Part shown: piece by piece, positions 20,653 through 50,664 of the stretch
Layout: each line of letters opens with the position of its first letter
How positions within the stretch are numbered: the first letter of the stretch is position 1
NCBI RefSeq assembly: GCF_000308295.2
Contig: NZ_HG326655.1
Coordinates: 176,763-240,762, forward strand
Source of the DNA: Afipia birgiae 34632
GTDB lineage: Bacteria; Pseudomonadota; Alphaproteobacteria; Rhizobiales; Xanthobacteraceae
DNA: 64,000 nucleotides
Direction of reading: 5' to 3'
Position numbers and translations under genes: made by a program
Notes under the pieces: generated by a model
What the model was told of the DNA's origin: nothing
The model's database searches: none
The model's input: the letters and a program-made list of their open reading frames with translations, nothing else

Positions 20653-21657
20653 TCAGTTCTTGTAGATCTGATCGAAAACGCCGCCTTCACCGAAGTGTTC
20701 CTTTTGCGCCTTGATCCAGCCGCCGAACACATCGTCGATGGTAAAAAGGTCAACCTTTGCAAAGGAGTCCGCATACTTTTCACCGACCGCAGCGTCGCGC
20801 GGGCGATAGAAATTCCGCGCCGCGATTTCCTGACCTTCCTTGGTGTACCAGTATTTCAGGTAGGCTTCAGCAGCGGCGCGGGTGCCTTTCTTGTCGGCCA
20901 CCGTGTCCACCACCGCAATCGGCGGCTCGGCCAGGATCGACAGCGGCGGCGCCACGATTTCGAACTTGTCCTTGCCGAATTCCTTCACCGCGAGGAAGGC
21001 TTCGTTCTCCCAGGCGAGCAGGACGTCGCCGACGCCGCGCTCAACGAAGGTTACCGTTGAGCCGCGCGCACCGGTGTCCAGCACGGGCACGTTCTTGAAG
21101 ATGTCGCCGATGAAGGTCTTGGCCTTGTCTGCGGAGCCGAACTTCTTCAGGCCATAGCCCCATGCCGCGAGGTAATTCCAGCGCGCGCCGCCCGACGTCT
21201 TGGGATTCGGCGTGATGACCTGAACGTTCTTCTTGATGAGATCGTCCCAGTCCTTGATGCTCTTCGGATTACCCTTACGCACGAGGAAGACGATGGTCGA
21301 GGTGTAAGGCGATGCATTTTGCGGCAGCTTGGCCTGCCAGTCCTTCGCGATCAGGTTCTTGCCCGCAATCGCGTCGATGTCGTAGGCCAGCGCGAGCGTC
21401 ACCACATCGGCCTGCAAGCCGTCGATCACCGAGCGAGCCTGCGAACCCGATCCGCCGTGCGACTGCTTGATCTCGATGCTCTTGCCGGTGTCCTTCTGAT
21501 AAGCGGCAGCGAACGCCTTGTTGAAATCGCCATACAACTCTCGCGTCGGATCGTACGAGACGTTCAGCAACGTGACATCCGCAGCAAGCGCCGAGCTTGC
21601 CCAGATCAAACTTCCAATCACGAGAAGCCGGCCGATAAGAGGCTTGGGGCGAACCAT
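20653..21657 (-). CDS. sbp: Periplasmic sulfate-binding protein
   Basis: About 334 residues from the ATG at 21657; the open frame extends 26 residues further but the signal peptide begins here ([16 protein letters not shown], cut before ADV). The mature protein carries family segments [30 protein letters not shown] and [20 protein letters not shown], whose backbone amides and Ser bind the sulfate dianion. First gene of sbp-cysT-cysW-cysA. A homologue with about the same order of motifs lies at 29574-30578. Confidence 0.93.
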
Positions 21658-36707: not shown

Positions 36708-36732
36708 GGAACGATCGCGGGGTCGCATCGTT
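36708..36732 (+). promoter_or_regulatory. EcfG-type promoter before csbD-like gene
   Basis: Perfect GGAAC-N16-CGTT, 30 bases before the start codon of the CsbD-like protein. Confidence 0.8.
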
Positions 36733-36761
36733 ATCGATCATTCTTACACAGGAGATGATCG

Positions 36762-36962
36762 ATGGATTGGAACCGCGTTGAAGGTAACTGGAAGCAGTTC
36801 AAGGGTGCTGCGAAGGAAAAATGGGGCAAGCTGACCGATGACGATCTCGATGTCATCGAAGGCCGCCGCGAGCAGCTCGAAGGCAAGCTCCAGCAGCGCT
36901 ACGGATTCGCCAAGGATCAGATCCACAAGGATGTGGACGACTGGTTCAAGACTCTGAAGTAA
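36762..36962 (+). CDS. CsbD family stress protein
   Basis: A 66-residue, charged, helical protein (MDWNRVEGNWKQFKGAAKEK, ending DVDDWFKTLK) matching the full CsbD family. CsbD of Bacillus subtilis belongs to the general stress regulon; the molecular function is unknown. Here the gene has a perfect EcfG promoter and its own terminator, so it is a one-gene stress unit. Confidence 0.93.
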   Translation: MDWNRVEGNWKQFKGAAKEKWGKLTDDDLDVIEGRREQLEGKLQQRYGFAKDQIHKDVDDWFKTLK

Positions 36963-36972
36963 CCGCTCAATG

Positions 36973-37000
36973 AAAAGCCCCGGCAACGCCGGGGCTTTTT
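36973..37000 (+). terminator. Rho-independent terminator after csbD-like gene
   Basis: AAAAGCCCCGGC-aac-GCCGGGGCTTTTT, stem of 12 paired bases with A/T flanks. Confidence 0.9.
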
Positions 37001-37037
37001 GTTTGTGGCGCCAACTCCCTCCCGAAGCGCGCCTGCG

Positions 37038-37199
37038 CTAGAACACTGCGAGATATTTCAGGATCGAAATGATGCCGATAATGATGACGATAGCGCGGAC
37101 GATCTGCTTCGCGCGGCCGTCGATCGGCAGCAGATTGACGAGATAGAGAACCAGAATAACGACGAGGAACGTAATCAGAACGCTGATAAGCAAAGACAT
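37038..37199 (-). CDS. Thivi_2564-type small membrane protein
   Basis: A 53-residue protein: MSLLISVLITFLVVILVLYL, then VNLLPIDGRAKQIVRAIVII and a last helix ending LKYLAVF. Two transmembrane helices flank a short PIDGRAKQI loop, the pattern of the Thivi_2564 family. The ribosome site GAGGGG lies 5 bases before the ATG, and a perfect EcfG promoter lies 62 bases upstream. Function unknown; a stress-induced inner-membrane protein is likely. Confidence 0.85.
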   Translation of the reverse strand: MSLLISVLITFLVVILVLYLVNLLPIDGRAKQIVRAIVIIIGIISILKYLAVF

Positions 37200-37260
37200 G
37201 GTGACCCCTCATGCAATCGAAAGCAGGGAGCGAGAAGCTCGTCCCGTATCCCTGCAGTCC

Positions 37261-37285
37261 AACGATCCCATGGGGGATTGGTTCC
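37261..37285 (-). promoter_or_regulatory. EcfG-type promoter before the Thivi_2564-type gene
   Basis: Minus strand GGAAC-N16-CGTT, perfect, ending 62 bases before the start codon at 37199. Confidence 0.78.
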
Positions 37286-37315
37286 CATCCGGGAACAGAG
37301 ATCACATCGCTCGTG

Positions 37316-37969
37316 TTACTGCGTCGCAATGACCGGGAGCCGCTCGAATTTCGCACGAACCGATTTCGGCGCTGGCGTGAAATTGAGCGCAGCGCTGCGG
37401 CGGCTGCTCCCCGCGATCATCAATCCATCCGCGCCGGCCACGATATCACCCTTGCGCAGGGTCGGATCGTCTTCAATCTTGACCGAGGCCAGGCCCGCCG
37501 GGTCCTTGCCATTGCAGGTGCAGCCGGCGATCAATTCCTTGCGGTAACGAAATGCATTCGGAAGATCCGAGTACGATTTTCCGGTATCGCTCGATGCGTC
37601 TTCGATCGAGCCGCCGTGAAAGATTTTCGTTTCGGTGGCCGGACAAAAGCTCTTGCAGGCCTCCGCCTTGGTCTGTCCATCCGATGCGACCACCGGGAAA
37701 TAGCGCCCGTCGCAGGTGCGCACGCAGTAAGTGGTCGAACCGCCGTAGCTGCCGCCATAGATGTTGACCCGCCTGTTCGGCGGCGGCGCATCACCGAAGT
37801 CAGTCGAGAACGGCATTGAGACGGCCGGCGCAGGCGCGCTTCCAAAGCTGCCGAAGAACGAGGAGAAGAAGTCGCGGGCATGCGCAGACGAAGCTCCGGC
37901 CGAAGCCGTGACAAGCGCGATCACGACGGCAACGGCCGTCGACCGGCGATACAACTTGAACTGACGCAT
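37316..37969 (-). CDS. DUF2865 periplasmic protein
   Basis: About 217 residues from the ATG at 37969 (frame open 8 residues further). Signal peptide to AHA. The core TYCVRTCDGRYFPVVASDGQ, ACKSFCPATETKIFHGGSIED and AGCTCNGKDPAGLA carries six conserved Cys, likely disulfides, and defines DUF2865, an alphaproteobacterial family of unknown role. No EcfG site is seen before it. Confidence 0.87.
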   Translation of the reverse strand: MRQFKLYRRSTAVAVVIALVTASAGASSAHARDFFSSFFGSFGSAPAPAVSMPFSTDFGDAPPPNRRVNIYGGSYGGSTTYCVRTCDGRYFPVVASDGQTKAEACKSFCPATETKIFHGGSIEDASSDTGKSYSDLPNAFRYRKELIAGCTCNGKDPAGLASVKIEDDPTLRKGDIVAGADGLMIAGSSRRSAALNFTPAPKSVRAKFERLPVIATQ

Positions 37970-38021
37970 GATGCCCTCTTCAACCTGGTTCATCCGCTAC
38001 ACAGCTCCTTCAAATTTTCAC

Positions 38022-38840
38022 TCAATTTAATCCGGACAATTTGACGTTTTGTGACGTACTGACGCGCAGCGGCTTGAGTGCACTGGCTCGCGGCGCCGCA
38101 CGTTCTCTGGCGGCGTCGGCCTCTATCCGTCCGCTCTTCGGCAACACTACAACCTTGGTGCCAATGGAGACCCGGCTTGCCAGATCCTGCACGTCGCCAT
38201 TGGTCAGGCGAATGCAGCCGCTGGAGACGAACTTGCCGATCGTGGACGGATCGTTGGTGCCGTGAATGCGGTAGGCGCTGGAGCCGAGATACATCGCCGC
38301 CGCGCCCAGCGGATTTCCCGGGCCGCCCGCAACGAACCGCGGCAGGTAAGGTTGGCGCGCGATCATCTCCGCCGGCGGATGCCAGTCAGGCCAGGCCGCC
38401 TTGCGCGAGACGGTCTGCACGCCGGACCAGGTGAAGCCCTCGCGGCCGACGCCAACGCCATAGCGGATCGCGCGGCCCTGGCCGAGCACGTAATAGAGCG
38501 TGGTATTGCCGGTATCGATCACGATGGTGCCGGGCGCTTCGCGCGTCTCGTAGGAGACGACCCTGCGTTGCAGCCGCTCGGGAAGGACAGCAGAACTGTC
38601 GCTATCATCCTCGGTCACGCGTGGCGAGGGCAGCGCTTGCCGGTCCGACCAGAACAAGCCCTGCGAATATCCATTTGAATATCCAGCGTATCCAAGCGTT
38701 TGCGACATCGCGGGCGTTGCCAGGACAATGGGGAATGCCATCGCCGCGATGGTGAAGCCGCGAGCGGATCGAAGGGACGTGGTGAAGATCCGGGAAATGG
38801 AATTTCGAGACACGGAATTCGCCTGCACCGAATGTGTCAT
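38022..38840 (-). CDS. L,D-transpeptidase (YkuD domain)
   Basis: 272 residues from the ATG at 38840. The frame stays open to 39434, but that extension is low-quality sequence across the opposite-strand DUF3309 gene. Signal sequence about residues 22-46. The catalytic domain has YRIHGTNDPSTIGKFVSSGC followed by IRL, the HGT and S-x-GC-x-R motif with the nucleophilic Cys. It makes 3-3 peptidoglycan cross-links or attaches proteins to the wall. A perfect EcfG promoter lies 51 bases upstream, so wall strengthening is part of the stress response. Confidence 0.9.
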   Translation of the reverse strand: MTHSVQANSVSRNSISRIFTTSLRSARGFTIAAMAFPIVLATPAMSQTLGYAGYSNGYSQGLFWSDRQALPSPRVTEDDSDSSAVLPERLQRRVVSYETREAPGTIVIDTGNTTLYYVLGQGRAIRYGVGVGREGFTWSGVQTVSRKAAWPDWHPPAEMIARQPYLPRFVAGGPGNPLGAAAMYLGSSAYRIHGTNDPSTIGKFVSSGCIRLTNGDVQDLASRVSIGTKVVVLPKSGRIEADAARERAAPRASALKPLRVSTSQNVKLSGLN

Positions 38841-38890
38841 GACCAGCCTCGGGGTTCTGCGATGGCATCGTGGGATGCGGATACAGATCG

Positions 38891-38916
38891 AACGCAGCGC
38901 CATGGCTTTTGGTTCC
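38891..38916 (-). promoter_or_regulatory. EcfG-type promoter before the L,D-transpeptidase gene
   Basis: Minus strand GGAAC-N17-CGTT, perfect. It supports the start at 38840 rather than the longer frame. Confidence 0.8.
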
Positions 38917-38980
38917 GGCGTCCCGCGCGCGACCAGCTGTTTGTATCCGTCGTTGCAAGGCCGGTTCACGCCACTGCAGC

Positions 38981-39005
38981 GGAACATTGGAAGCGCGAGA
39001 CGGTT
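38981..39005 (+). promoter_or_regulatory. Near-match EcfG-type promoter before the DUF3309 gene
   Basis: GGAAC-N16-GGTT, one mismatch in the -10, 58 bases before the ATG at 39063. Confidence 0.55.
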
Positions 39006-39062
39006 AGCGGTCCCTGAAGCCGTGCATGACAGTAGGCCCGGCACAAATTGAGGACTTTGATC

Positions 39063-39221
39063 ATGTCTCTTGGCACCATTCTGATCATTATTTTGATCCT
39101 TATCCTGCTCGGCGTCATTCCAAGCTGGGGCCACAGCGCAAACTGGGGTTACGGCCCGTCGGGGATCGTCGGTACCATCCTGGTAATCGTGGTGATCTTG
39201 CTGCTGCTCGGCAGAATCTGA
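39063..39221 (+). CDS. DUF3309 small membrane protein
   Basis: A 52-residue protein (MSLGTILIIILILILLGVIP, then SWGHSANWGYGPSGIVGTIL and a second helix ending LLLLGRI). Two hydrophobic helices around a Trp/Gly loop are the DUF3309 pattern. Small, abundant in alphaproteobacteria, function unknown. It ends one base before the AI-2E-type transporter gene, so the two are co-transcribed. Confidence 0.88.
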   Translation: MSLGTILIIILILILLGVIPSWGHSANWGYGPSGIVGTILVIVVILLLLGRI

Positions 39222-39222
39222 C

Positions 39223-40335
39223 ATGCCCGACGTGCGCCGGGAGGTGCGCGACAGGATTCGTCCGGCGAAGTCTTCGCCGGACGAGCAGGAAGACCAGCAG
39301 CCTCCAGCTATTGGACAGTCAGAGATCGTCGCCCTTTCTCTGGTCGCGCTGCTCATCATCAGCGTGGTCGCGGTGCTATATGTCGCGCGGGCTTTCTTCC
39401 TCCCGACGGTGACGGCGCTTGTGATCGGCACCATGCTGTCTCCGGCCGCAAAATTTTTCGAACGCTATGGGATTCCGCGTTCAGTCTCGGCGGTCCTGAT
39501 CGTCTCGGCGACCTGCGCCGGACTGGCGTTCATGGTGGCGCTGATTTCCGCGCCGGTGATGGAATGGACCACGCGGCTGCCGGAGCTTCAGTCGTCGCTC
39601 AAGGACAAATTCCACATCTTCGACCGGCCGATGGCGCTCTGGCATCAGATGCAGAGTCTGTTCGGCGGCACACCCGCAGAAACCGGCTTCCCCCTGCCGA
39701 AGATCGAATGGGTCCAGCCGACGCTCGAATTTTTGTCGCCGACATTCACGGAGATCCTGCTGTTCTTCGCCGTCCTCGTGCTCTTCATCGCAAGCTGGCC
39801 GGATCTGCGCCGTGCGCTCGTTCTGAACTTCACCGGACACGACTCGCGGCTGCGCGCCCTGCGCATCCTGAACGCAATCGAGAGCAATCTCGGCGGCTAT
39901 CTCCTGACGGTGACGCTGATCAATATGGGGCTCGGCGTCGCCACCGGATTGATCTGCGCCGCCACCGGAATGCCGAATCCCGCCGGCCTCGGCGCGCTTG
40001 CCGCGACCCTGAACTACATTCCGATTATCGGCCCCATTGTCACGTTCGTGGTGCTTGCGGCGGTTGGCATCGTCACGGCATCGACCCTCGGCGGAGGACT
40101 TGTTGCGGCGACCGGCTTTGCCATTGTGGCTTTCATCGAAGGCCACTTCATCACGCCGACGATCATCGGGCGGCGGCTCGCGCTGAATGCGCTCGCGGTG
40201 TTTGTCGCACTGGCTTTCTGGACATGGCTGTGGGGACCGATGGGCGCCTTTCTGTCATCGCCGATCCTGATTGTCGGCCTGGTCATCAAGGAGCACTTGA
40301 TGCCGGTCAAGGACACCCAGCTGCCCGCCGACTAA
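39223..40335 (+). CDS. AI-2E family (PerM/YhhT-type) membrane transporter
   Basis: A 370-residue inner-membrane protein with about eight helices. It has a charged N-terminal 30-residue tail and the family core: GTMLSPAAKFFERYGIPRSV, FIASWPDLR, NYIPIIGPIVTF and EGHFITPTIIGRRLALNALA. Family members export small molecules or act as permeases of unknown substrate; the AI-2 role applies to few. Operon with DUF3309. ATG start immediately after the upstream stop. Confidence 0.88.
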   Translation: MPDVRREVRDRIRPAKSSPDEQEDQQPPAIGQSEIVALSLVALLIISVVAVLYVARAFFLPTVTALVIGTMLSPAAKFFERYGIPRSVSAVLIVSATCAGLAFMVALISAPVMEWTTRLPELQSSLKDKFHIFDRPMALWHQMQSLFGGTPAETGFPLPKIEWVQPTLEFLSPTFTEILLFFAVLVLFIASWPDLRRALVLNFTGHDSRLRALRILNAIESNLGGYLLTVTLINMGLGVATGLICAATGMPNPAGLGALAATLNYIPIIGPIVTFVVLAAVGIVTASTLGGGLVAATGFAIVAFIEGHFITPTIIGRRLALNALAVFVALAFWTWLWGPMGAFLSSPILIVGLVIKEHLMPVKDTQLPAD

Positions 40336-40343
40336 TCAGCAAT

Positions 40344-40368
40344 GGAACCTTCGTCGGAACCGTGCGTT
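40344..40368 (+). promoter_or_regulatory. EcfG-type promoter before the DUF883 gene
   Basis: GGAAC-N16-CGTT, perfect, 37 bases before the ATG at 40405. Confidence 0.8.
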
Positions 40369-40404
40369 TTCGCACGGAGCAATGCGGCACTCGGGAGTTT
40401 TTAG

Positions 40405-40776
40405 ATGTCTAGCACCGATGGTGAAGACGCGATGAGAACCATGACGGATAAAGTCACATATGAACGCCTTCAGAAGGATGTAGACGCCGTGAAAAACGAT
40501 ATCTCAGCACTCGCAGACCAGATTTCGGATGTCATTGAGGCCTTCAAGGGTGACGCGCGTAAACAGGCCCGGCGAACCTACAAGCAGGCCCGCGCCAATG
40601 TGGACTCCATGATGTCCGACGCCGGCAAGCGCGGCAGCGAGGCGCTGGACGCCGCGCAGGACTATGCCGGGACGCTGGAGGAATCGCTCGAAGACGCCAT
40701 CACACAGCGTCCCCTCGCCGCTGTCGGCCTCGCCGTCGGGCTCGGCTTTCTGATTGGCGTGACCTGGCGCAGGTGA
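40405..40776 (+). CDS. DUF883 (YqjD/ElaB-type) membrane-anchored protein
   Basis: A 123-residue protein: a long charged amphipathic helix region (residues about 15-95), then one C-terminal helix LAAVGLAVGLGFLIGVTWRR. This is the tail-anchored layout of YqjD/ElaB, which bind ribosomes at the membrane in stationary phase in E. coli. Followed 79 bases later by an Act/YqjE-like membrane gene, paralleling the E. coli yqjCDE order. Confidence 0.85.
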   Translation: MSSTDGEDAMRTMTDKVTYERLQKDVDAVKNDISALADQISDVIEAFKGDARKQARRTYKQARANVDSMMSDAGKRGSEALDAAQDYAGTLEESLEDAITQRPLAAVGLAVGLGFLIGVTWRR

Positions 40777-40792
40777 CATGAATTTTCAGCGT

Positions 40793-40819
40793 CCCGCCGG
40801 CAATGCCGGTGGGGCTTTC
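40793..40819 (+). terminator. Weak hairpin after the DUF883 gene
   Basis: CCCGCCGGC-aat-GCCGGTGGGGC followed by TTTC; imperfect stem and short T-run, so read-through into the next gene is likely. Confidence 0.4.
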
Positions 40820-40855
40820 GCGCCATTTTGTTGACGGATACTGATCGGATTTTCG

Positions 40856-41287
40856 ATGCTTCAGAAGTTCATGGATGACTTTCGCGAAAGCACCGGGAGC
40901 GCGTTGCGGCTGACATCTCTGGCGATCGCCGTCGCGGTATTGCTGTTCATCACGACCTCGTTCGTGTGCGCCGCAGCCTTCGTTTTCGTGTTGCAGAAAT
41001 ACGGACTTCTGCAGGCCTGCCTCGCTGGTGCCGGCGTGTTCTTCGTGGCGACGATGCTGGCGGCGATCTCCTATGCCGTGCGAAAGCGGCAAATCCGCAA
41101 GAGGCCGGTTGAGGCGGCCAAATCCACCATGCAGACCGCCCTGAGCGATCCGATGGTGCTGGCCGCAGGGCTGCAGATCGTCCGGACGATCGGGCTAAAA
41201 CGCATCATTCCCCTGGTCGCCATCGGTGGCATTGCGCTGGGCTTGATGGCAAGCCGCCGCCAGACCGAAGAGGAGCCCGGAGAATAA
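40856..41287 (+). CDS. YqjE-like / holin-superfamily membrane protein
   Basis: A 143-residue protein with two N-terminal membrane helices (SLAIAVAVLLFITTSFVCAA and CLAGAGVFFVATMLAAISYA) and a third near the C-terminus (IIPLVAIGGIALGLMAS). The layout fits small YqjE-type proteins that neighbour DUF883 genes. Function unknown; probably expressed from the EcfG promoter of the previous gene. Confidence 0.68.
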   Translation: MLQKFMDDFRESTGSALRLTSLAIAVAVLLFITTSFVCAAAFVFVLQKYGLLQACLAGAGVFFVATMLAAISYAVRKRQIRKRPVEAAKSTMQTALSDPMVLAAGLQIVRTIGLKRIIPLVAIGGIALGLMASRRQTEEEPGE

Positions 41288-41316
41288 CGGCTTGTCGCCG
41301 ACCTGAATGCCGTCAA

Positions 41317-41347
41317 AAGGGAGCGCCAACTGGCGCTCTCTTTCTTT
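41317..41347 (+). terminator. Rho-independent terminator after the YqjE-like gene
   Basis: AAAAGGGAGCGCCA-ac-TGGCGCTCTCTTTCTTT; stem GAGCGCCA/TGGCGCTC with A and T/C flanks. Confidence 0.75.
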
Positions 41348-41362
41348 GATGGTCGAGAAGGA

Positions 41363-41794
41363 TCAGGTCACGCAGCGGCCCGGCGCCAGCTGCTTTGCTA
41401 CAGCCGTCAGAACGCTCACCACGGGCTCGCAAGCCACTGGACGTGCGCCTGCGGACGAACCCTTGCCGGTGCCGGTGGTCAATGCCGGTGCCTTACGCTG
41501 TGCGTCTGCGGCATCGCCCGACGGCAGCCGGACCATGACCGAGGAATCCGAGGATCCCGGCACCTTGAATGAAATCGTGACGCCGCCGGAAGGCGACACC
41601 GACAGTTCGCGATCACCCTTCGCCGAACGATCGACGTTGACTGCGATGGGTTCAACGCGCGCCGGACTTGTCATCGTCGCGTCACCACGAGCCGGACCGA
41701 GCAGGTCGTTTCCTGCCGATACTTCCAGATGCACGGCACCCAGTGCCAGCACCCCTGCCACCACTCCGAGAGTTCCAGAAGCCAGGTAGGACAT
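41363..41794 (-). CDS. Hypothetical secreted protein, EcfG-controlled
   Basis: A 143-residue protein with an N-terminal hydrophobic segment (YLASGTLGVVAGVLALGAV) as signal or anchor. The rest is polar, with a beta-like LSVSPSGGVTISFKVPG segment and two Cys (ACEP near 120 and RC near the end) that may pair. I do not recognise a family. A perfect EcfG promoter 50 bases upstream says it belongs to the stress regulon. Confidence 0.68.
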   Translation of the reverse strand: MSYLASGTLGVVAGVLALGAVHLEVSAGNDLLGPARGDATMTSPARVEPIAVNVDRSAKGDRELSVSPSGGVTISFKVPGSSDSSVMVRLPSGDAADAQRKAPALTTGTGKGSSAGARPVACEPVVSVLTAVAKQLAPGRCVT

Positions 41795-41843
41795 CTGCCG
41801 CCTCTACACGTTGCCATGCCGCATAATTGCGGCTCGGCAAAAC

Positions 41844-41869
41844 AACGTGACTCGCTCGGCTTTCGTTCC
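41844..41869 (-). promoter_or_regulatory. EcfG-type promoter before the hypothetical secreted protein
   Basis: Minus strand GGAAC-N17-CGTT, perfect, with the -10 50 bases before the start at 41794. Confidence 0.78.
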
Positions 41870-42055
41870 GGGCGGGAGGTAGCGAAGGCTGAAGAAAAAT
41901 TCGATTCGGCTGGGAACATTGTCGTGATGTGTGCGTCGTATCCAAAGCCGGTCAAATCCCCCTGCCCCTAATCGACCGGCTTATGGGGGTGTAGCCGTGG
42001 TGATGCCGGCTGCACCCCTTCTCTTTGTCTTCGCCTTGTCCTTGTACACGACGCA
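41870..42055. other. Intergenic remainder between phyR terminator and EcfG promoter
   Basis: Contains GGAAC-N16-CGTC on the plus strand at 41913-41937 (one mismatch) but no plus-strand gene follows. Nothing else recognised. Confidence 0.35.
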
Positions 42056-42096
42056 TGAAAAAGCCGGAGCGCGATCCTCGCACTCCGGCTTTGTTG
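42056..42096 (-). terminator. Terminator of phyR
   Basis: On the minus strand AAAGCCGGAG ... CTCCGGCTTTTTC: perfect 10-base stem with T-run, about 30 bases after the phyR stop. Confidence 0.85.
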
Positions 42097-42121
42097 TTGC
42101 ATCCCACGTGACGGCGCCCGC

Positions 42122-42925
42122 TCAGGACGCCGCGGCCCTTGGCCGGCTCTTGGAATTGCGCTGGAAGAACAGCGCCTGGCTTGCCACCGCCGACACCATG
42201 GCCGGCTGGAAAGGCTTCGATATCAGGAAGGCGGGTTCAGGACGCTCGCCGGTCAGGAACCGCTCGGGGTAGGCGGTGATGAACACCACCGGCACCTCGA
42301 ACGACTTGAGCAGTTCGTTCACGGCATCAAGACCCGAACTGCCATCCGCAAGCTGGATGTCCGCCAGGATCAGACCCGGCCTTTTCGACTTCGCCAAGGC
42401 TATCGCATCGGTGTGGGTCCGCGCCACGCCGATCACATTGTGACCGAGGTTTTTGACCAGACTTTCAAGATCCATCGCGATGAAGGTCTCGTCCTCGATG
42501 ATGAGAACATCGGTCGCGATCTCGGCGGCCAGTTCGCGTCCGGCGGTGTCCGCCAATTCACGAACATGTGTCACATCCGTATCCAGGATGTGAGCGACCT
42601 CGTCCTCCGAGAAGCCTTCAAGCGACAGCAGCAGGAACGCCTGACGCGCCAGTGCGGTCAGGCTCGACAGCCGTTGCTCGGACGCAACCGGTGCAGCCCC
42701 CTTATCGGTCGTCTCATTGAGAGACACCGAATTCCAGATTTGAGTGAAAAGCCTGAACAACCCCACGCGCGGCCCGTGCTTTTCCTCAAGCAGCGAGGGA
42801 TCTTGAAGCAAGGCTTCAAGCATGGCCGCCACATAGGCATCGCCCGATGCCTGACTTCCGGTGAGCGCGCGGGCATAGCGCCGCAACAGTGGCAGATGTT
42901 CAGCGACGAGCTGAGAACGAGACAT
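42122..42925 (-). CDS. phyR: General stress response regulator PhyR
   Basis: 267 residues from the ATG at 42925; the ATG at 42940 lies upstream of and includes the ribosome site GGAGGGGGT, so it is not used. Residues 1-about 130 form a sigma-factor mimic with region-2- and region-4-like helices. The C-terminal receiver has IIEDETFIAMD (acidic pocket), LILADIQLADG (phospho-acceptor Asp) and LISKPFQP (Lys). Phosphorylated PhyR binds the anti-sigma NepR and frees EcfG. It is divergent from nepR-ecfG; both sides have EcfG promoters, a positive loop. Confidence 0.96.
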   Translation of the reverse strand: MSRSQLVAEHLPLLRRYARALTGSQASGDAYVAAMLEALLQDPSLLEEKHGPRVGLFRLFTQIWNSVSLNETTDKGAAPVASEQRLSSLTALARQAFLLLSLEGFSEDEVAHILDTDVTHVRELADTAGRELAAEIATDVLIIEDETFIAMDLESLVKNLGHNVIGVARTHTDAIALAKSKRPGLILADIQLADGSSGLDAVNELLKSFEVPVVFITAYPERFLTGERPEPAFLISKPFQPAMVSAVASQALFFQRNSKSRPRAAAS

Positions 42926-42978
42926 ACCCCCTCCAATCAATCATCATTTGCTATGGACCGGATTTCCTTTGGACCGGT

Positions 42979-43004
42979 AACGCGACCCGGCGACCGCCGG
43001 TTCC
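42979..43004 (-). promoter_or_regulatory. EcfG-type promoter of phyR
   Basis: Minus strand GGAAC-N17-CGTT, perfect, 54 bases before the phyR start. Confidence 0.85.
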
Positions 43005-43052
43005 CCGCTTCGGATTATCTACGTCTTAACAGGGGAAAAGTTCCTTCCGGCT

Positions 43053-43077
43053 GGAACTTTAAGCCGCCGGCCCCGTT
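43053..43077 (+). promoter_or_regulatory. EcfG-type promoter of nepR-ecfG
   Basis: GGAAC-N16-CGTT, perfect, 72 bases before the nepR ATG at 43149; autoregulation of the sigma factor. Confidence 0.87.
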
Positions 43078-43148
43078 TACGACGTGATCAATGGGCTGAA
43101 AGGCTTCGGAAAGAACTAAAATTCCAGTGTTTCCAGCTAATTAGCTCC

Positions 43149-43400
43149 ATGGGGAAAAAACGGATCGGGCCAATGAAAGATTCAAAGCCTCCACAAAACA
43201 GGGCATCCACCGGCGCCGGCAAGCAAGGTGGCCTCAATGCCGAAATTCAATCCCGTATCGGGCACCAGTTGCGCGCGATGTACGACGATGTCGTGCGTCA
43301 GGGCGTGCCGGACCGTTTTGCCGATCTGATCCGCCAGCTTGATTCCCAGGAAGCGGCAGCCCAGATCGCTGGAGACCCGCCAAAAGACGGGAGGGACTAA
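43149..43400 (+). CDS. nepR: Anti-sigma factor NepR
   Basis: 83 residues. The conserved core IQSRIGHQLRAMYDDVVRQG followed by VPDRFADLIRQLD forms the two helices that clamp EcfG or, when PhyR is phosphorylated, PhyR. The ends are polar and disordered, as usual for the family. An alternative start is the ATG at 43173. It overlaps ecfG by one base, so the antagonists are made in a coupled ratio. Confidence 0.95.
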   Translation: MGKKRIGPMKDSKPPQNRASTGAGKQGGLNAEIQSRIGHQLRAMYDDVVRQGVPDRFADLIRQLDSQEAAAQIAGDPPKDGRD

Positions 43401-43948
43401 TGCCTCTCACCGACTCACTTCGCGACGACATTCTCGCGACCGTGCCAAGCCTGCGCGCGTTCGCTATCTCCCTTAGCGGCAATGCCGACCGCGCGGACGA
43501 TCTCGTGCAGGAAACGCTGTTGCGCGCGCTTGCGCACATCGATTCCTTCCAGCCGGGATCCAATCTGCCGGCGTGGCTGTTCACGATCCTGCGCAATCTC
43601 TTCCGCTCGGACTATCGCAAGCGGCGGCGGGAGGTTGAAGACGCCGATGGCAGCTACGCCAAGACGCTCAAGTCGCAGCCTGCCCAGAGCGCTCATCTCG
43701 AGTTCGAAGAGTTTCGAACCGCGCTCGACAAGCTGCCGCAGGATCAGCGCGAAGCGCTCATCCTCGTGGGTGCCTCGGGCTTCTCGTATGAAGATGCCGC
43801 GGCGATCTGCGGATGCGCGGTCGGCACCATCAAGAGCCGCGTCAATCGCGCACGGTCGAAATTGAGCGCCTTGCTCTATGTCGACGGTGCCGAAGACTTC
43901 GGACCGGATAACACAATCCGCGCCGTGATCGGCGGAGGTGGCGGCTAG
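43400..43948 (+). CDS. ecfG: ECF sigma factor EcfG (ECF15)
   Basis: 182 residues. Region 2 has RADDLVQETLLRALAHIDSF; region 4 has LPQDQREALILVGASGFSYE and CAVGTIKSRVNRARSKL, the helix-turn-helix for the -35 GGAAC. It directs the general stress regulon whose promoters cluster around it here. The start overlaps nepR's stop (ctaATG). Confidence 0.96.
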   Translation: MPLTDSLRDDILATVPSLRAFAISLSGNADRADDLVQETLLRALAHIDSFQPGSNLPAWLFTILRNLFRSDYRKRRREVEDADGSYAKTLKSQPAQSAHLEFEEFRTALDKLPQDQREALILVGASGFSYEDAAAICGCAVGTIKSRVNRARSKLSALLYVDGAEDFGPDNTIRAVIGGGGG

Positions 43949-44000
43949 GCCGCCATCTCTGAAACACGAACGAATCTCAGGACTTCCAGGCGCACGAAGA

Positions 44001-44034
44001 AACGCGGCCACTCGCAAGTGGTCGCGTTCTTCTG
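44001..44034 (+). terminator. Terminator of ecfG
   Basis: AACGCGGCCAC-tcgcaa-GTGGTCGCGTT followed by CTTCTGTT; one G-T pair in an 11-base stem. Confidence 0.7.
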
Positions 44035-44038
44035 TTGA

Positions 44039-44122
44039 TCAATTCAGGCCGCCGAAGGCCCAGATCAAAACCAAGACGGGAATGGGAATCCCGAGCAGCC
44101 ACACCAACAGATAGCGTCCCAT
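44039..44122 (-). CDS. 27-residue membrane peptide
   Basis: MGRYLLVWLLGIPIPVLVLI followed by WAFGGLN. One hydrophobic helix with a Pro-containing kink. I recall similar tiny proteins in Bradyrhizobiaceae but no name. A GGGAAAG ribosome-like site lies 9 bases before the ATG. It sits between ecfG and the HWE kinase gene and is read in the kinase's direction, so it may share that transcript. Confidence 0.5.
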   Translation of the reverse strand: MGRYLLVWLLGIPIPVLVLIWAFGGLN

Positions 44123-44199
44123 TATGATGACTTTCCCTTGCGTGACAGCATCTGCTGCTCAATTCATCGCCGGAAAGTTTGTTCCTCGATCTGCCCGGA

Positions 44200-45852
44200 T
44201 CAGCGCTTCTTGACCGGCGCACCGATTCGTTCGGTGCGATCCATTTCGGTCTCGTCCACCACCGTCGCCATCGGAGCCGTCAGTTCGTAGACGTAGCTAA
44301 CGTCGGTGAAATATCGCTTCGACGTGCCGCCCAGCGCTTCGGGAGCAACGCGATCCAGCAACACGATTCCGAATTCGCTGTCGGCCCGGCGGGTCGCCGC
44401 ACTGGTGTTGAATTCTTCCCAGCGGAAATGAAAAACGGCGTCCGGCTGTTCGCTCACGCTCCATTCCGCGACGATATGCGGGTGCTTGCCGACCAGCGAC
44501 AGGCCCTCATCGGCGTGAGACGCCAGCTCGAAAAACAGCAGCGACAGGCTCTGCGCCGCGCGCGCGCTGACAGTGACGTCAGGCCCGCTCAGCGCGATCC
44601 GGTCCGCGTGGGGAATCGCCCGCGGTTCGAACAGGCCCTTGAGCTTGACGCCCTGCCACTGGCTTTCGCTGAGCAGCGACACGACATGCGACATGGCATG
44701 AATACGGCCGATCAGGAGGTCGCGAGCGATGTCGATATCCGCGCCATGACGCATCGTCCGCGTCACGATCGACTGGATGACGGCCAGAATATTCTTCACG
44801 CGATGATTGAGTTCGTCGATGACGGCGGTCAGCCGGCGCTCGAAATCGATACGGGTCTGGATTTCGCGGCTGAGGCGAATGTTGTTGTAGGACACATATC
44901 CGAACAGGCCGCAGAGAATGAGGGTCAGCGCCACACCGATCAGCGTCACGATGCCGGCGATCTCCTGCGCCCGTGCTGCGGGGTTGGTCTTGGCGTAATA
45001 AATCAGCGTCCAGTCCCGTGCGCCGAATGAAACGACGCGCAACAGCGGCGGATTGTCAGCGTCCAGCAGCAGCGGAACGGATGTCACGTTGCCTTCGGCA
45101 TCGGAGGTCAGGTTATCCGATGCGTTGCGCGGATCGCGCAGCGCCACCGAGAACAGTGACAGATCGTCATTGGTGAGCATCAAGGGCGCCAACCGGTAGG
45201 AAATCGTCAGAAAGCCCGCCACGCTGGCGCCGGTGTCCGTCCGCACCGGCGACGCCAGCACGATGCCCATGGGGCCGCCGACACGCAGCAGCACGAAGGG
45301 GTCGGACGACACCGGCCTGCCCTCCTCCACCGCACGATTGAGCATGGGCATGATTACCGGGTGATTGTTCAGCACGCGGCCGACGAACGCCCTGGTTTCA
45401 TCGTTCTGCGGCTCGACATCCATTATGGCCGTCACCGGATCAGGCACCGCAGCCGGATTCAACGGCGTATCATCGACGTTCCGGAGCACCGGATTGGGGA
45501 AACCGGCAACCTTCAGCTCGTTCTGCGCACGACCGAAATCGGCGCGCGGAACGCGAGCCACCCAGCTTGCGACGAGAAAATCGGTCTTGAAGGCATAGAT
45601 CGACGACCGCAACGGCTGCAGTGCATTGGCCATGTTGACCGAGGGCGAGCGAAACAACCCGACCGCGACCCGGGCCAGCAGTTCACGCTCGCTCAGCCGC
45701 TCCTGAACCAGACTGGCATGAGTGTCGACCGAGCGCGCCAGATCGATCCGGGCGATCGATAGTTCCTGATCGTAGACCTTCATGGCCGCAAGACCGGAGA
45801 CCAGCACTCCGATGATCGCCATCAGCCCGATGATGAGACCCAGCCGGAGCAC
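44200..45852 (-). CDS. HWE/HisKA_2-type sensor kinase with CHASE-like periplasmic domain, candidate PhyR partner
   Basis: About 550 residues from a GTG. TM1 is at the N-terminus, a periplasmic CHASE-like region spans about 25-300, TM2 lies near 305-328 (IVTLIGVALTLILCGLFGYV), then DELNHRVKNILAVIQSIV with the phospho-acceptor His. WEE and EFGIVLLDRVAPEALGG remain from the HWE ATPase. The N box, normally ELATNAxKYGAL, reads ELASHADEGLSLVG here: the Mg-binding Asn is replaced. The frame is open upstream to about 45951 without ATG/GTG/TTG, and ARVHFHPLSLSSK there looks coding, so the true start is uncertain. Beside phyR, it is a likely input to the cascade. Confidence 0.85.
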   Translation of the reverse strand: MLRLGLIIGLMAIIGVLVSGLAAMKVYDQELSIARIDLARSVDTHASLVQERLSERELLARVAVGLFRSPSVNMANALQPLRSSIYAFKTDFLVASWVARVPRADFGRAQNELKVAGFPNPVLRNVDDTPLNPAAVPDPVTAIMDVEPQNDETRAFVGRVLNNHPVIMPMLNRAVEEGRPVSSDPFVLLRVGGPMGIVLASPVRTDTGASVAGFLTISYRLAPLMLTNDDLSLFSVALRDPRNASDNLTSDAEGNVTSVPLLLDADNPPLLRVVSFGARDWTLIYYAKTNPAARAQEIAGIVTLIGVALTLILCGLFGYVSYNNIRLSREIQTRIDFERRLTAVIDELNHRVKNILAVIQSIVTRTMRHGADIDIARDLLIGRIHAMSHVVSLLSESQWQGVKLKGLFEPRAIPHADRIALSGPDVTVSARAAQSLSLLFFELASHADEGLSLVGKHPHIVAEWSVSEQPDAVFHFRWEEFNTSAATRRADSEFGIVLLDRVAPEALGGTSKRYFTDVSYVYELTAPMATVVDETEMDRTERIGAPVKKR

Positions 45853-46127
45853 GCACTTACTCGAAAGCGATAGGGGATGAAAATGAACTCGGGCCAGTGA
45901 GGCTGGCCCGGCGGAAATGGTTGTCGTACGCGGATACCGAACTGGTCGTCATGAATACTCTGCTGCTGCCGGATCGCCGGTCAACCCGCCGGCACGGCCC
46001 GAGAATGTGTCGCGAATGGATTAATGTAAGTGCTGCCAGATGGTTCCAGCGACCGGAAAATATACCTGTCGGCCGTCATGGTAAATCCGGCGCCACCTCC
46101 CCGCGTATCGCCGCGTCGACAGGCCGG
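45853..46127. other. Intergenic region upstream of the HWE kinase
   Basis: It holds the kinase promoter, and possibly its true start codon (see the kinase entry). No EcfG site or other known element was found. Confidence 0.35.
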
Positions 46128-46238
46128 CTAGGCCACCATGACCAGACCGAGGACCACCACGACGATCCCAATCAGAATCGCGCCAAGAAAGACGCCGCTA
46201 TAGTCTCTGCCGGGGGCTATGACGAGTGACCGTTTCAT
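46128..46238 (-). CDS. 36-residue membrane peptide
   Basis: MKRSLVIAPGRDYSGVFLGA followed by ILIGIVVVVLGLVMVA. Short basic N-terminus and a single Gly/Val-rich helix. No Shine-Dalgarno is seen. A near EcfG match, GGAAC-N17-TGTT at 46247-46272, ends only 8 bases before the ATG, which would make a leaderless mRNA. Unnamed; moderate doubt whether it is real. Confidence 0.4.
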   Translation of the reverse strand: MKRSLVIAPGRDYSGVFLGAILIGIVVVVLGLVMVA

Positions 46239-46246
46239 GCAGGGCT

Positions 46247-46272
46247 AACACCCCTGCCCCCACGAGCGTTCC
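46247..46272 (-). promoter_or_regulatory. Near-match EcfG-type promoter before the 36-residue frame
   Basis: Minus strand GGAAC-N17-TGTT, one mismatch in the -10. It also lies just after ureG, in the same direction. Confidence 0.35.
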
Positions 46273-47714: not shown

Positions 47715-48312
47715 GGGAATGACCGTGATGATGATCGTGGTCGTGCTTGCCGTGATCATGCGCATGATCGTGATGCTTGTGATCGTGACCGTGCTCGGTG
47801 TGACCATGATCATGTTTGCCATGATCGTGGTCGCCGTGCTTGTGACTGCCATGATCGTCGTGATCATGCGCGGCATGGCCGCCGCCAGCGTAGGCGCCGC
47901 CCTCGGGATCGAACGGGGCTTCGATGACGATCACGCGTGCGCCGAGGCCGCGCACCATGTCTTCGATCACATGATCGCGGCGGATGCGAAGACCCTTGCC
48001 GACGATCTGCGTCGGCAGATGCCGGTTGCCGAGGTGCCAGGCGATCCGCACGAGATGGTGCGGATCGGTGCCGCGAATTTCCACCAGCGGTTCGGGCGCA
48101 GCGACCACCTCGATCAGCCGCCCGTCTTCCAACACCAGCGCATCGCCGCCGCGGAGCGCGACGGCCTCCTGCAAGTCGAGCAGGAATTCCAGCCCGTGCG
48201 TGCCGGTCATCGCCATCCGCCGCCGGTGCCGGTCGTCGAAGCCGAGGACCACCGTATCGGCGGCGGCCTCGGTCCAGCGAACCTGCGGGAACACCTGCGT
48301 CGCGCGGATCAT
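47695..48312 (-). CDS. ureE: Urease nickel metallochaperone UreE with His-rich tail
   Basis: About 205 residues from the ATG at 48312. N-terminal peptide-binding domain, central metal domain [19 protein letters not shown] with the conserved His, then a C-terminal tail in which I count 27 His in the last 60 residues (DHGKHDHGH types), expected to store several Ni ions. The start overlaps the stop of the monooxygenase-fold gene by 4 bases (ATGA). The repetitive His codons make the opposite strand and other frames look open. Confidence 0.94.
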
Positions 48313-48614
48313 GACGTGAGCTTCTGCACTTCGCCGCCAATAATGACTTCGATATTGGTCGGCGATGCCTTGAACGATCCCGAGAGCGTGCGCCACGCTT
48401 TCAGGTGCGGCGTGAGACGATGCGCCGCGAGGTGATCATGACTTTCCCACCGTTCGACAAACACAAACGTATCGGGGTCGGACACGCTGCCGTGAAGATC
48501 ATAGGCAATACAGCCCGGCTCCTTGCGCGTCTCGGCGATGCAGTCCTTTGCACCGGCGACATAGGCGGCACGGTGTTCAGGCTTCACCTTGGTGGTGGCG
48601 ACGACGTAGATCAT
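48309..48614 (-). CDS. Antibiotic biosynthesis monooxygenase (ABM)-fold protein, copy 2
   Basis: 101 residues from the ATG at 48614. A ferredoxin-like dimeric alpha/beta protein: [20 protein letters not shown], then [20 protein letters not shown] and [11 protein letters not shown] with the usual His near the end of the fold. It pairs with a paralogue directly upstream, overlapping by 4 bases. ABM proteins include quinone-forming oxygenases and heme enzymes, but many are uncharacterised. Why it sits before ureE is unknown. Confidence 0.83.
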
Positions 48615-48910
48615 CGGACCTCCACATTCGCCGGCGTGATAACCTCGATCTTCGGCGGCGCGGCGAGGCAATTCACAACGACACGCCCGAACGTCTTCAT
48701 GTGCTCGGCCTTGCGGTGCGGCACGAGCGCTTCGGCGTTTTCCCACTGCTCGACGAACACCAGCTTGGTGGGGTCGGTCACGCTCTCATGCAGATCGTAA
48801 GCGATGTTTCCAGTTTCCTTGCGGGTCTCGGCGATGCAGGCTTTCGCCGCGGCAATCATGTCCGCACGCGTCTCAGGCTTGATGGTCAAAGTCGCAACAA
48901 CGTAAATCAA
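48611..48910 (-). CDS. Antibiotic biosynthesis monooxygenase (ABM)-fold protein, copy 1
   Basis: 99 residues, MIYVVATLTIKPETRADMIA, then NIAYDLHESVTDPTKLVFVE and QWENAEALVPHRKAEHMK. By eye it shares roughly half its residues with copy 2, so a tandem duplication. Follows ureC by 38 bases. Predicted cytoplasmic. Substrate unknown. Confidence 0.84.
   Translation of the reverse strand: MIYVVATLTIKPETRADMIAAAKACIAETRKETGNIAYDLHESVTDPTKLVFVEQWENAEALVPHRKAEHMKTFGRVVVNCLAAPPKIEVITPANVEVR

Positions 48911-48948: not shown

Positions 48949-50664
<1,716 letters not shown>

Follow-up and report, generated by a model that had tools for sequence, protein, structure and literature searches.

A dense set of predicted EcfG-type promoters around phyR-nepR-ecfG in Afipia birgiae

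The phyR/nepR-ecfG locus encodes the response regulator PhyR, the anti-sigma factor NepR and the extracytoplasmic function (ECF) sigma factor EcfG (ECF15). In Bradyrhizobium diazoefficiens, Sphingopyxis and Rhizobium etli, published descriptions give it a divergent phyR, overlapping nepR and ecfG genes, an adjoining HWE kinase gene and EcfG-type promoters before both units. Divergent, EcfG-controlled phyR and nepR-ecfG units are the norm according to PMC4814048, and the Sphingopyxis EcfG regulon holds csbD and the HWE kinase gene adjoining phyR (PMC7083833). In the sources consulted, only regulators and kinases are given as the conserved context of the locus. Here, we analyzed this locus in Afipia birgiae 34632 (assembly of 5,334,146 bases), within a stretch of 64,000 nucleotides (nt) of contig NZ_HG326655.1 that we call the window. 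The A. birgiae locus shares the described arrangement, the promoters before both units being predicted here. Beyond the described arrangement, seven further conserved EcfG-type promoters of effector genes are predicted here, up to 7 kb away to one side and up to 3 kb to the other.

Local ECF regulons are the other close comparison. As in those, the sigma factor gene lies beside promoters of its own type, and motifs over-represented at autoregulated ECF genes serve for ECF promoter prediction (PMC8103513). Unlike the sigma factors of local regulons, EcfG is global; here, its predicted targets form many separate units on both strands, a set of neighbours that different genera share by descent and that outlasted the departure of the sigma factor. 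The chromosomal distance between a regulator gene and its targets is also the subject of PMC8674286, which by its abstract treats a whole transcription network, whereas here a single regulator offers a natural separation. The partner switch and the two autoregulated units are known already. In the open-access literature searched, part of it in excerpt, we found neither the target neighbourhood nor its uncoupling in Bradyrhizobium described, nor any account of the locus as an order-wide hub of effector promoters. In the text searched, the Bradyrhizobium start-site paper PMC4842269 names EcfG only among its references, and PMC3420878 yielded no list of EcfG targets.

We scanned for the perfect motif GGAAC-N16/17-CGTT, with the same pattern reversed as a control. 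The window contains eight perfect sites, seven of them at 36708-43077; in 100 dinucleotide-shuffled versions of the window, the mean was 1.02 and the maximum three, and none reached eight. The eighth site (20677-20701, minus strand) is intragenic. All seven sites of the island are intergenic and face a start codon. Counted from where the -10 element ends, the start codon follows after 29 nt for the CsbD-like gene, 61 nt for the Thivi_2564-family gene, 50 nt for the L,D-transpeptidase gene, 36 nt for DUF883, 49 nt for the gene of a secreted protein, 71 nt for nepR and, for phyR, 38 nt (TTG start) or 53 nt (ATG start). A preliminary description of the window had placed seven perfect sites 30-75 bases before start codons; all seven were found where it had put them and on the same strands, and the measured 29-71 nt is close to its range.

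Genome-wide, we counted 99 perfect sites, or 0.19 per 10 kb; the chance expectation of 0.15 per 10 kb in the preliminary description was arithmetically right. That description had proposed comparing the density here with the rest of the genome, and in this comparison 6.4 kb of the island held seven sites, while any other 6.4 kb held at most two and any other 20 kb at most three. When 99 points were placed uniformly in 20,000 draws, four or more fell within 6.4 kb in 2.2% of draws, five or more in 0.075%, and six or more never. The reversed motif did not occur in the 20.5 kb around ecfG. These results support a dense set of EcfG-type promoters around phyR-nepR-ecfG that has no match elsewhere in the genome.

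Outside the window, the 91 distinct perfect sites comprise 37 that are intragenic, 31 that lie between genes and have a start no more than 150 nt away, and 23 intergenic ones that lack such a start. Starts were taken from a codon-usage gene caller that was trained on the window only and applied also to other families; it missed nepR, the start of which came from the list of open reading frames (ORFs). With perfect sites only counted and the 31 elsewhere given by the gene caller, the island has seven of about 38 promoter-like perfect sites, so the earlier statement that much of the regulon is linked to its sigma factor was too strong. The promoter-like sites beyond the island are scattered, and their predicted targets include ferritin-type, DUF892, another CsbD-like and Nramp-type proteins.

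The features of the island, 36708-46272, are as follows (aa, amino acids).

36708-36732, plus strand: predicted EcfG-type promoter of the CsbD-like gene; perfect site
36762-36962, plus strand: CsbD-like protein, 66 aa (Pfam PF05532, 80.6 bits, cut-off 40)
37038-37199, minus strand: Thivi_2564-family membrane protein, 53 aa (NCBIfam NF041949, 57.5 bits, cut-off 33)
37261-37285, minus strand: predicted EcfG-type promoter of the Thivi_2564-family gene; perfect site
37316-37993, minus strand: DUF2865 protein (Pfam PF11064), no EcfG-type site proposed
38022-38840, minus strand: L,D-transpeptidase (YkuD; Pfam PF03734, 85.2 bits)
38891-38916, minus strand: predicted EcfG-type promoter of the L,D-transpeptidase gene; perfect site
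38981-39005, plus strand: putative EcfG-type promoter (-10 GGTT) of the DUF3309 gene, possibly also of the AI-2E gene; one mismatch
39048-39221, plus strand: DUF3309 small membrane protein (Pfam PF11752, 78.8 bits)
39223-40335, plus strand: AI-2E-family transporter/permease, directly 3' of DUF3309 (Pfam PF01594)
40344-40368, plus strand: predicted EcfG-type promoter of the DUF883 gene; perfect site
40405-40776, plus strand: DUF883 (ElaB/YqjD-like) protein (Pfam PF05957, 25.2 bits, just below the cut-off of 25.4)
40856-41287, plus strand: 143-aa protein 3' of DUF883, membrane protein by eye, without a site of its own; no Pfam or NCBIfam match
41363-41794, minus strand: secreted protein, VNR-KGDR ... 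CEPVVSVLT-VAKQL-PGRC; no Pfam or NCBIfam match
41844-41869, minus strand: predicted EcfG-type promoter of the secreted-protein gene; perfect site
42122-42925, minus strand: PhyR, response regulator/anti-anti-sigma factor (NCBIfam NF006623, 370 bits, cut-off 240; sigma-like domain and receiver by Pfam PF22029, PF22233 and PF00072)
42979-43004, minus strand: perfect site before phyR; lineage-specific, accessory or chance
43020-43044, minus strand: predicted conserved EcfG-type phyR promoter (GGAACTTT...CGTA); one-off site
43053-43077, plus strand: predicted EcfG-type promoter of nepR-ecfG (autoregulation); perfect site
43149-43400, plus strand: NepR anti-sigma factor (Pfam PF18557, 62.9 bits, cut-off 25.7; NCBIfam NF051865, 33 bits, under the cut-off of 100)
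43400-43948, plus strand: EcfG sigma factor, its start overlapping the nepR stop (Pfam sigma70_r2, r4_2)
44200-45852, minus strand: CHASE-HWE histidine kinase, likely the PhyR kinase (Pfam PF07536, PF03924)
46023-46047, minus strand: candidate EcfG-type kinase promoter (-10 CATT); one mismatch, 171 nt before the kinase start
46128-46238, minus strand: 36-aa single-span membrane peptide (span by eye), with homologues in eight other loci
46247-46272, minus strand: putative EcfG-type promoter (-10 TGTT) of the 36-aa peptide gene; one mismatch, ATG 8 nt 3'

These assignments bear out the earlier impression that the targets are mostly small membrane and envelope proteins.

To follow the sites across genomes, we used 81 ecfG loci (the window and 80 others), counting a locus for a gene where tblastn gave a match with at least 150 nt upstream; several loci end early at contig ends. 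A footprint comparison covered ten sites in six other Afipia loci (L061-L066). In total, 474 of 490 motif positions agreed, compared with 617 of 879 in the spacer and 5603 of 6787 in the flanks, which are partly coding. The site before the L,D-transpeptidase gene is perfect in 17 of 18 loci (footprint 45/45), that before the CsbD-like gene in 13 of 15 (41/44) and that before DUF883 in all 21. Before the Thivi_2564-family gene, eight of 17 loci have a perfect site and 15 have one with at most one mismatch (50/54); for the secreted protein, the corresponding counts are ten and 55 of 69 (54/54). The near matches before DUF3309 and the 36-residue frame, already pointed out in the preliminary description, proved to be conserved: a site with at most one mismatch precedes DUF3309 in 7/7 loci (one perfect; 36/36) and the 36-aa peptide gene in 9/9 (one perfect; 45/45). 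The kinase site aligns in five of the six Afipia loci (motif 45/45, spacer 66/80). A perfect site also stands 145 nt ahead of the kinase gene in Rhodopseudomonas locus L091 and in a corresponding position in L085, and one-mismatch sites precede the kinase gene in L070 and L087. Genes for which we propose no site served as negative controls within the locus: none of 22 upstream regions of the 143-aa gene and none of 39 of ureG held a perfect site (one site with at most one mismatch each), and the reversed motif had no perfect match upstream of any gene class. Taken together, the GGAAC-N16/17-CGTT-like sequences before these genes appear to be under purifying selection.

Variation in the -10 box has precedents in three studies: a consensus allowing C/GGTT (PMC4814048), a flexible box in the Sphingopyxis EcfG regulon (PMC7083833), and putative sites ending in TGTT, GGTT, CATT or GTA at EcfG-dependent Sphingomonas genes (PMC6599016). 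Because the variant -10 sites are conserved here and variant boxes are seen in EcfG-dependent genes, we read the island as holding nine putative promoters that are conserved, probably a tenth for the kinase gene, and one accessory site. At the 36-aa peptide gene, the ATG lies exactly 8 nt past the -10 box in 8/8 loci (the window, L061-L066 and L136), and in L068 the start given by tblastn is 16 nt from it; the mRNA is predicted to be leaderless.

For the regulators, phyR is divergent from nepR-ecfG, with EcfG-type sites before both units. We assign the sigma factor to ECF15/EcfG by its Pfam sigma70 domains and by identity: it is 92-99% identical to proteins whose genes adjoin phyR and nepR in Afipia, Bradyrhizobium, Rhodopseudomonas and Tardiphaga, the closest EcfG genes among named records are from Afipia (97-99%), and 27 of 28 other genomes of the genus encode a 90-99% identical protein, the exception being G023, which has no close EcfG match. 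Together with A. birgiae itself, these gave 28 genomes in which we compared the promoter regions, accepting seven -10 variants that were picked after viewing the results for the 81 loci. The one-off site at 43020-43044 (GGAACTTT...TA) is present in all 28 (footprint 54/54), compared with only five of 28 for the perfect site at 42979-43004, the footprint of which (45/54) is the lowest of all. The phyR promoter is thus most likely the one-off site. The perfect word that the preliminary description had assigned to phyR does exist, and we reject it as the main promoter on its poor conservation. The nepR site has an allowed -10 variant in 27 of the 28 genomes and CGTT in 13.

We then compared perfect-site density within ~10 kb on each side of ecfG or phyR, or up to the contig end where this came sooner, with the expectation from the rest of each genome (genome sizes rounded, p values uncorrected, paralogue loci L143 and L160 left out). 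The order set, Hyphomicrobiales by the kinship of the window, comprised 18 of 32 genomes from outside the genus (G029-G060), seven of the same family and 11 of other families, with a best ecfG match of E 3e-48 or better; the other 14 were left out. For other orders, 24 of 144 genomes had PhyR, our own included, and 20 of the other 23 were used, representing 18 families after three second members of a family had been set aside. The 18 order genomes held 96 perfect sites against 5.2 expected, with 7 against 6.3 for the reversed control, and 14 of them were enriched at p<0.01. The 20 genomes of other orders held 53 against 5.3 expected (reversed control, 7 against 7.4), with seven at p<0.01; 13 had two sites or fewer, one of these none. 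A raised site density near ecfG/phyR is a wider trait than Afipia. Among these 149 sites, 45 precede phyR, nepR or ecfG, 79 precede other called genes, 17 have no called start, and eight are intragenic, compared with 37 of 91 intragenic sites at large in the A. birgiae genome. At least one non-regulator target was present in 15/18 order genomes and 9/20 others. Pfam assigned the 76 non-regulator proteins to DUF1328 (8), CsbD (7), DUF883_C (7), PRC (6) and HWE kinases (4), among others. Four loci of the order (L145, L150, L155 and L157) are denser than the A. birgiae island, with 9-11 perfect sites in 13-20 kb, and their targets, placed by eye, include trehalose-phosphatase, KGG-repeat and Crp-type genes.

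The gene order of the island is glcB, CsbD, Thivi_2564, DUF2865, L,D-transpeptidase, DUF3309, AI-2E, DUF883, the 143-aa gene, the secreted-protein gene, phyR, nepR, ecfG, the kinase gene and ure. This order from glcB to ure, with gains and losses, recurs in Afipia, Rhodopseudomonas and part of Bradyrhizobium. Among the 81 loci, 25 show the kinase gene along with an island gene in the sequence covered, 43 have at least 8 kb upstream and no island gene, and 13 are too short. On a tree of PhyR and EcfG from these loci, the link to the island changed at least five times and the link to the kinase at least twice (a quick method that left 36 of 75 inner branches open). Twelve genomes were searched whole, one of them, Rhodopseudomonas palustris, as a linked control. 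DUF883 and the L,D-transpeptidase gene lay within ~2.5 kb of each other in 11/11 genomes with a DUF883 match. In five Bradyrhizobium (G061, G062, G065, G069 and G070; islands L202, L203, L206, L210 and L211), the target block still lies between glcB and kinase-ureGF, tblastn found no phyR, nepR or ecfG in those 20 kb, and an OpgC-type and a TetR-type gene (with one more in L206) occupy the regulators' place. These names come from Pfam for L203 only and were extended to the other four by eye from like sequence. The replacement stretches are as follows.

L202, 6176-8011: OpgC/TetR replacement stretch
L203, 5932-7790: OpgC/TetR replacement stretch
L206, 11831-13683: OpgC/TetR replacement stretch
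L210, 5509-7345: OpgC/TetR replacement stretch
L211, 6291-8130: OpgC/TetR replacement stretch

In G069, the regulators lie ~1.94 Mb from the island, on what we take, from equal lengths, to be the same contig. At L084, the order is secreted protein, SnoaL (named by Pfam in L084 only), phyR, nepR and ecfG, between htpG and a nitroreductase gene, and in L130 and L076 of the same clade the arrangement is unbroken and includes a SnoaL-like gene. The simplest account is that in Bradyrhizobium the regulon remained in place and the sigma module departed. We rejected dispersal of the targets, given that the target block is together elsewhere and the regulator block has moved. Separations in G063, G068 and G071 (~10-26 kb, apparently on the same contig) and in G064, G066 and G072 (other contigs) may be of different kinds. 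In the 11 islands that are not within 10 kb of ecfG (linked L208 left out), perfect sites precede DUF883 in 11/11, the Thivi_2564-family gene in 9/11 and the CsbD-like gene in all three in which it was found. That the sites persist in unlinked islands suggests that regulation does not require linkage.

The secreted-protein family has a tblastn match in 69 of the 81 loci and moved with phyR-ecfG in L084 and L111. It is marked by VNR-K(G/A/S)DR close to the midpoint and by a terminal CEPxVSxLTxVAKxLxPGRC, and proteins bearing KGDR were found by eye behind EcfG-type sites in L144 and L145. The family is a candidate periplasmic partner of the response.

Several observations weigh against reading these sites as EcfG promoters. 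Over the whole genome, the perfect motif shows no enrichment (99 sites, compared with 121 for the reversed control), and one-mismatch matches in the window were not in excess at either spacing (21 compared with 16.6, and 13 compared with 16.2, in shuffles), so a lone match is weak evidence. The reversed control also matched, with at most one mismatch, 8/81 phyR, 3/81 nepR, 3/69 secreted-protein and 3/21 DUF883 upstream regions, which makes one-mismatch matches weak by themselves. The -10 box drifts, with perfect sites in only 7/81 nepR and 4/81 phyR loci, and the best site of the secreted protein has AGAAC for GGAAC in part of Bradyrhizobium. A perfect site precedes DUF2865, which we treated as a non-target, in 3/21 loci; in islands not beside ecfG, none of 11 had one. 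The L,D-transpeptidase site is perfect in only five of the 11 unlinked islands (10/11 with at most one mismatch). Lastly, 13 more proteins of the genome match EcfG (E<=0.001), and other ECF-type factors might therefore share the motif. Since single matches are weak, the case for promoters is carried by clustering, position and conservation.

Overall, we consider it very probable that this is the known PhyR-NepR-EcfG locus with its positive feedback, set in an ancestral, vertically inherited cluster of targets in which each unit has its own promoter. Stress would activate HWE-type kinases, with the neighbouring kinase as the obvious candidate; PhyR, once phosphorylated, would take NepR off EcfG, and EcfG-RNA polymerase would start at GGAAC-N16/17-CGTT-like promoters. 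The regulatory promoters, of phyR and nepR-ecfG, would provide positive feedback, and the others (CsbD, Thivi_2564, L,D-transpeptidase, DUF3309-AI-2E, DUF883, the secreted protein and the 36-aa peptide) would supply small membrane and envelope proteins. We infer EcfG binding and transcription, the kinase-PhyR pairing and the physiology of the targets. With an own promoter for each target group, regulation should not need linkage. The sites might instead be read by another ECF-type sigma factor, which we regard as improbable. The 13 further EcfG matches leave room for this, as does the reading of similar -35 boxes by other ECF factors, for example GGAACTT by Escherichia coli RpoE (PMC8103513). 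Against this, the EcfG motif published for Sphingopyxis, R. etli and others is GGAAC-N16-CGTT or close to it (including PMC7083833 and PMC4814048), and the sites stand before phyR and nepR-ecfG themselves and gather around ecfG in different families. That a GC-rich region simply contains many GGAAC and CGTT words would fit genome-wide counts no higher than the reversed control. We nevertheless rejected chance clustering and put its probability at next to nil, given the random placements, the lack of reversed matches around ecfG, the intergenic and correctly oriented position of all seven sites, and the footprint.

How the cluster came to be is open to two further readings. The regulator and regulon could have been acquired by horizontal transfer and be moving together as a mobile stress island; they do form a contiguous block, the linkage of which varies within Bradyrhizobium. 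We hold this to be very improbable and rejected it: G+C is even (0.59-0.64 at positions 30-50 kb), the 64-kb window has no tRNA, the 17 window proteins given to Pfam (other ORFs were not searched) include no integrase, and the flanks, glcB and urease, are the same in Afipia, Rhodopseudomonas and linked Bradyrhizobium. The preliminary description had supposed that the regulon partly travels with its regulator; in five Bradyrhizobium, the two parts are separate, with the targets in their old place. Alternatively, proximity itself may have been selected, with a scarce, stress-released sigma factor reaching nearby promoters faster or the region forming one topological domain. In Hyphomicrobiales and some other alphaproteobacteria, selection would have kept the sigma factor in a target-dense neighbourhood repeatedly rebuilt from CsbD, DUF1328, DUF883, PRC-barrel and DUF3309 genes, with proximity speeding or strengthening the first wave. 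This is conceivable, and we lean against it. Density is raised in 14/18 order and 7/20 other-order genomes, and target families recur in different orders. Yet the module left the cluster in Bradyrhizobium while the sites persisted without linkage, perfect sites are scarce around the moved module (a single one at -9958 in L084 and at -5109 in L111), no more than two sites occur in 13/20 other-order genomes, and simple inheritance of the gene order could also explain the linkage. If proximity does matter, japonicum-type Bradyrhizobium, with the sigma module uncoupled from its neighbourhood, would be a natural experiment.

For species that have no transcriptome, the neighbourhood offers a cheap way of naming probable direct targets of EcfG, and it puts forward the KGDR/CEP secreted family, the 36-aa peptide, DUF1328 and DUF3309 as candidate core stress proteins. 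Furthermore, linked and unlinked sister genomes make the question of sigma-target closeness testable in bacteria.

Beyond the island, Rfam 5_ureB_sRNA (RF02514) matches 50223-50508 on the plus strand, antisense within the frame of the urease alpha subunit; the match may reflect no more than protein-coding conservation. Between urease-type genes, 48309-48910 on the minus strand contains a pair of neighbouring ORFs of similar sequence (MIYVVAT...KPE...), which by eye are monooxygenase-like and look like a tandem duplication.

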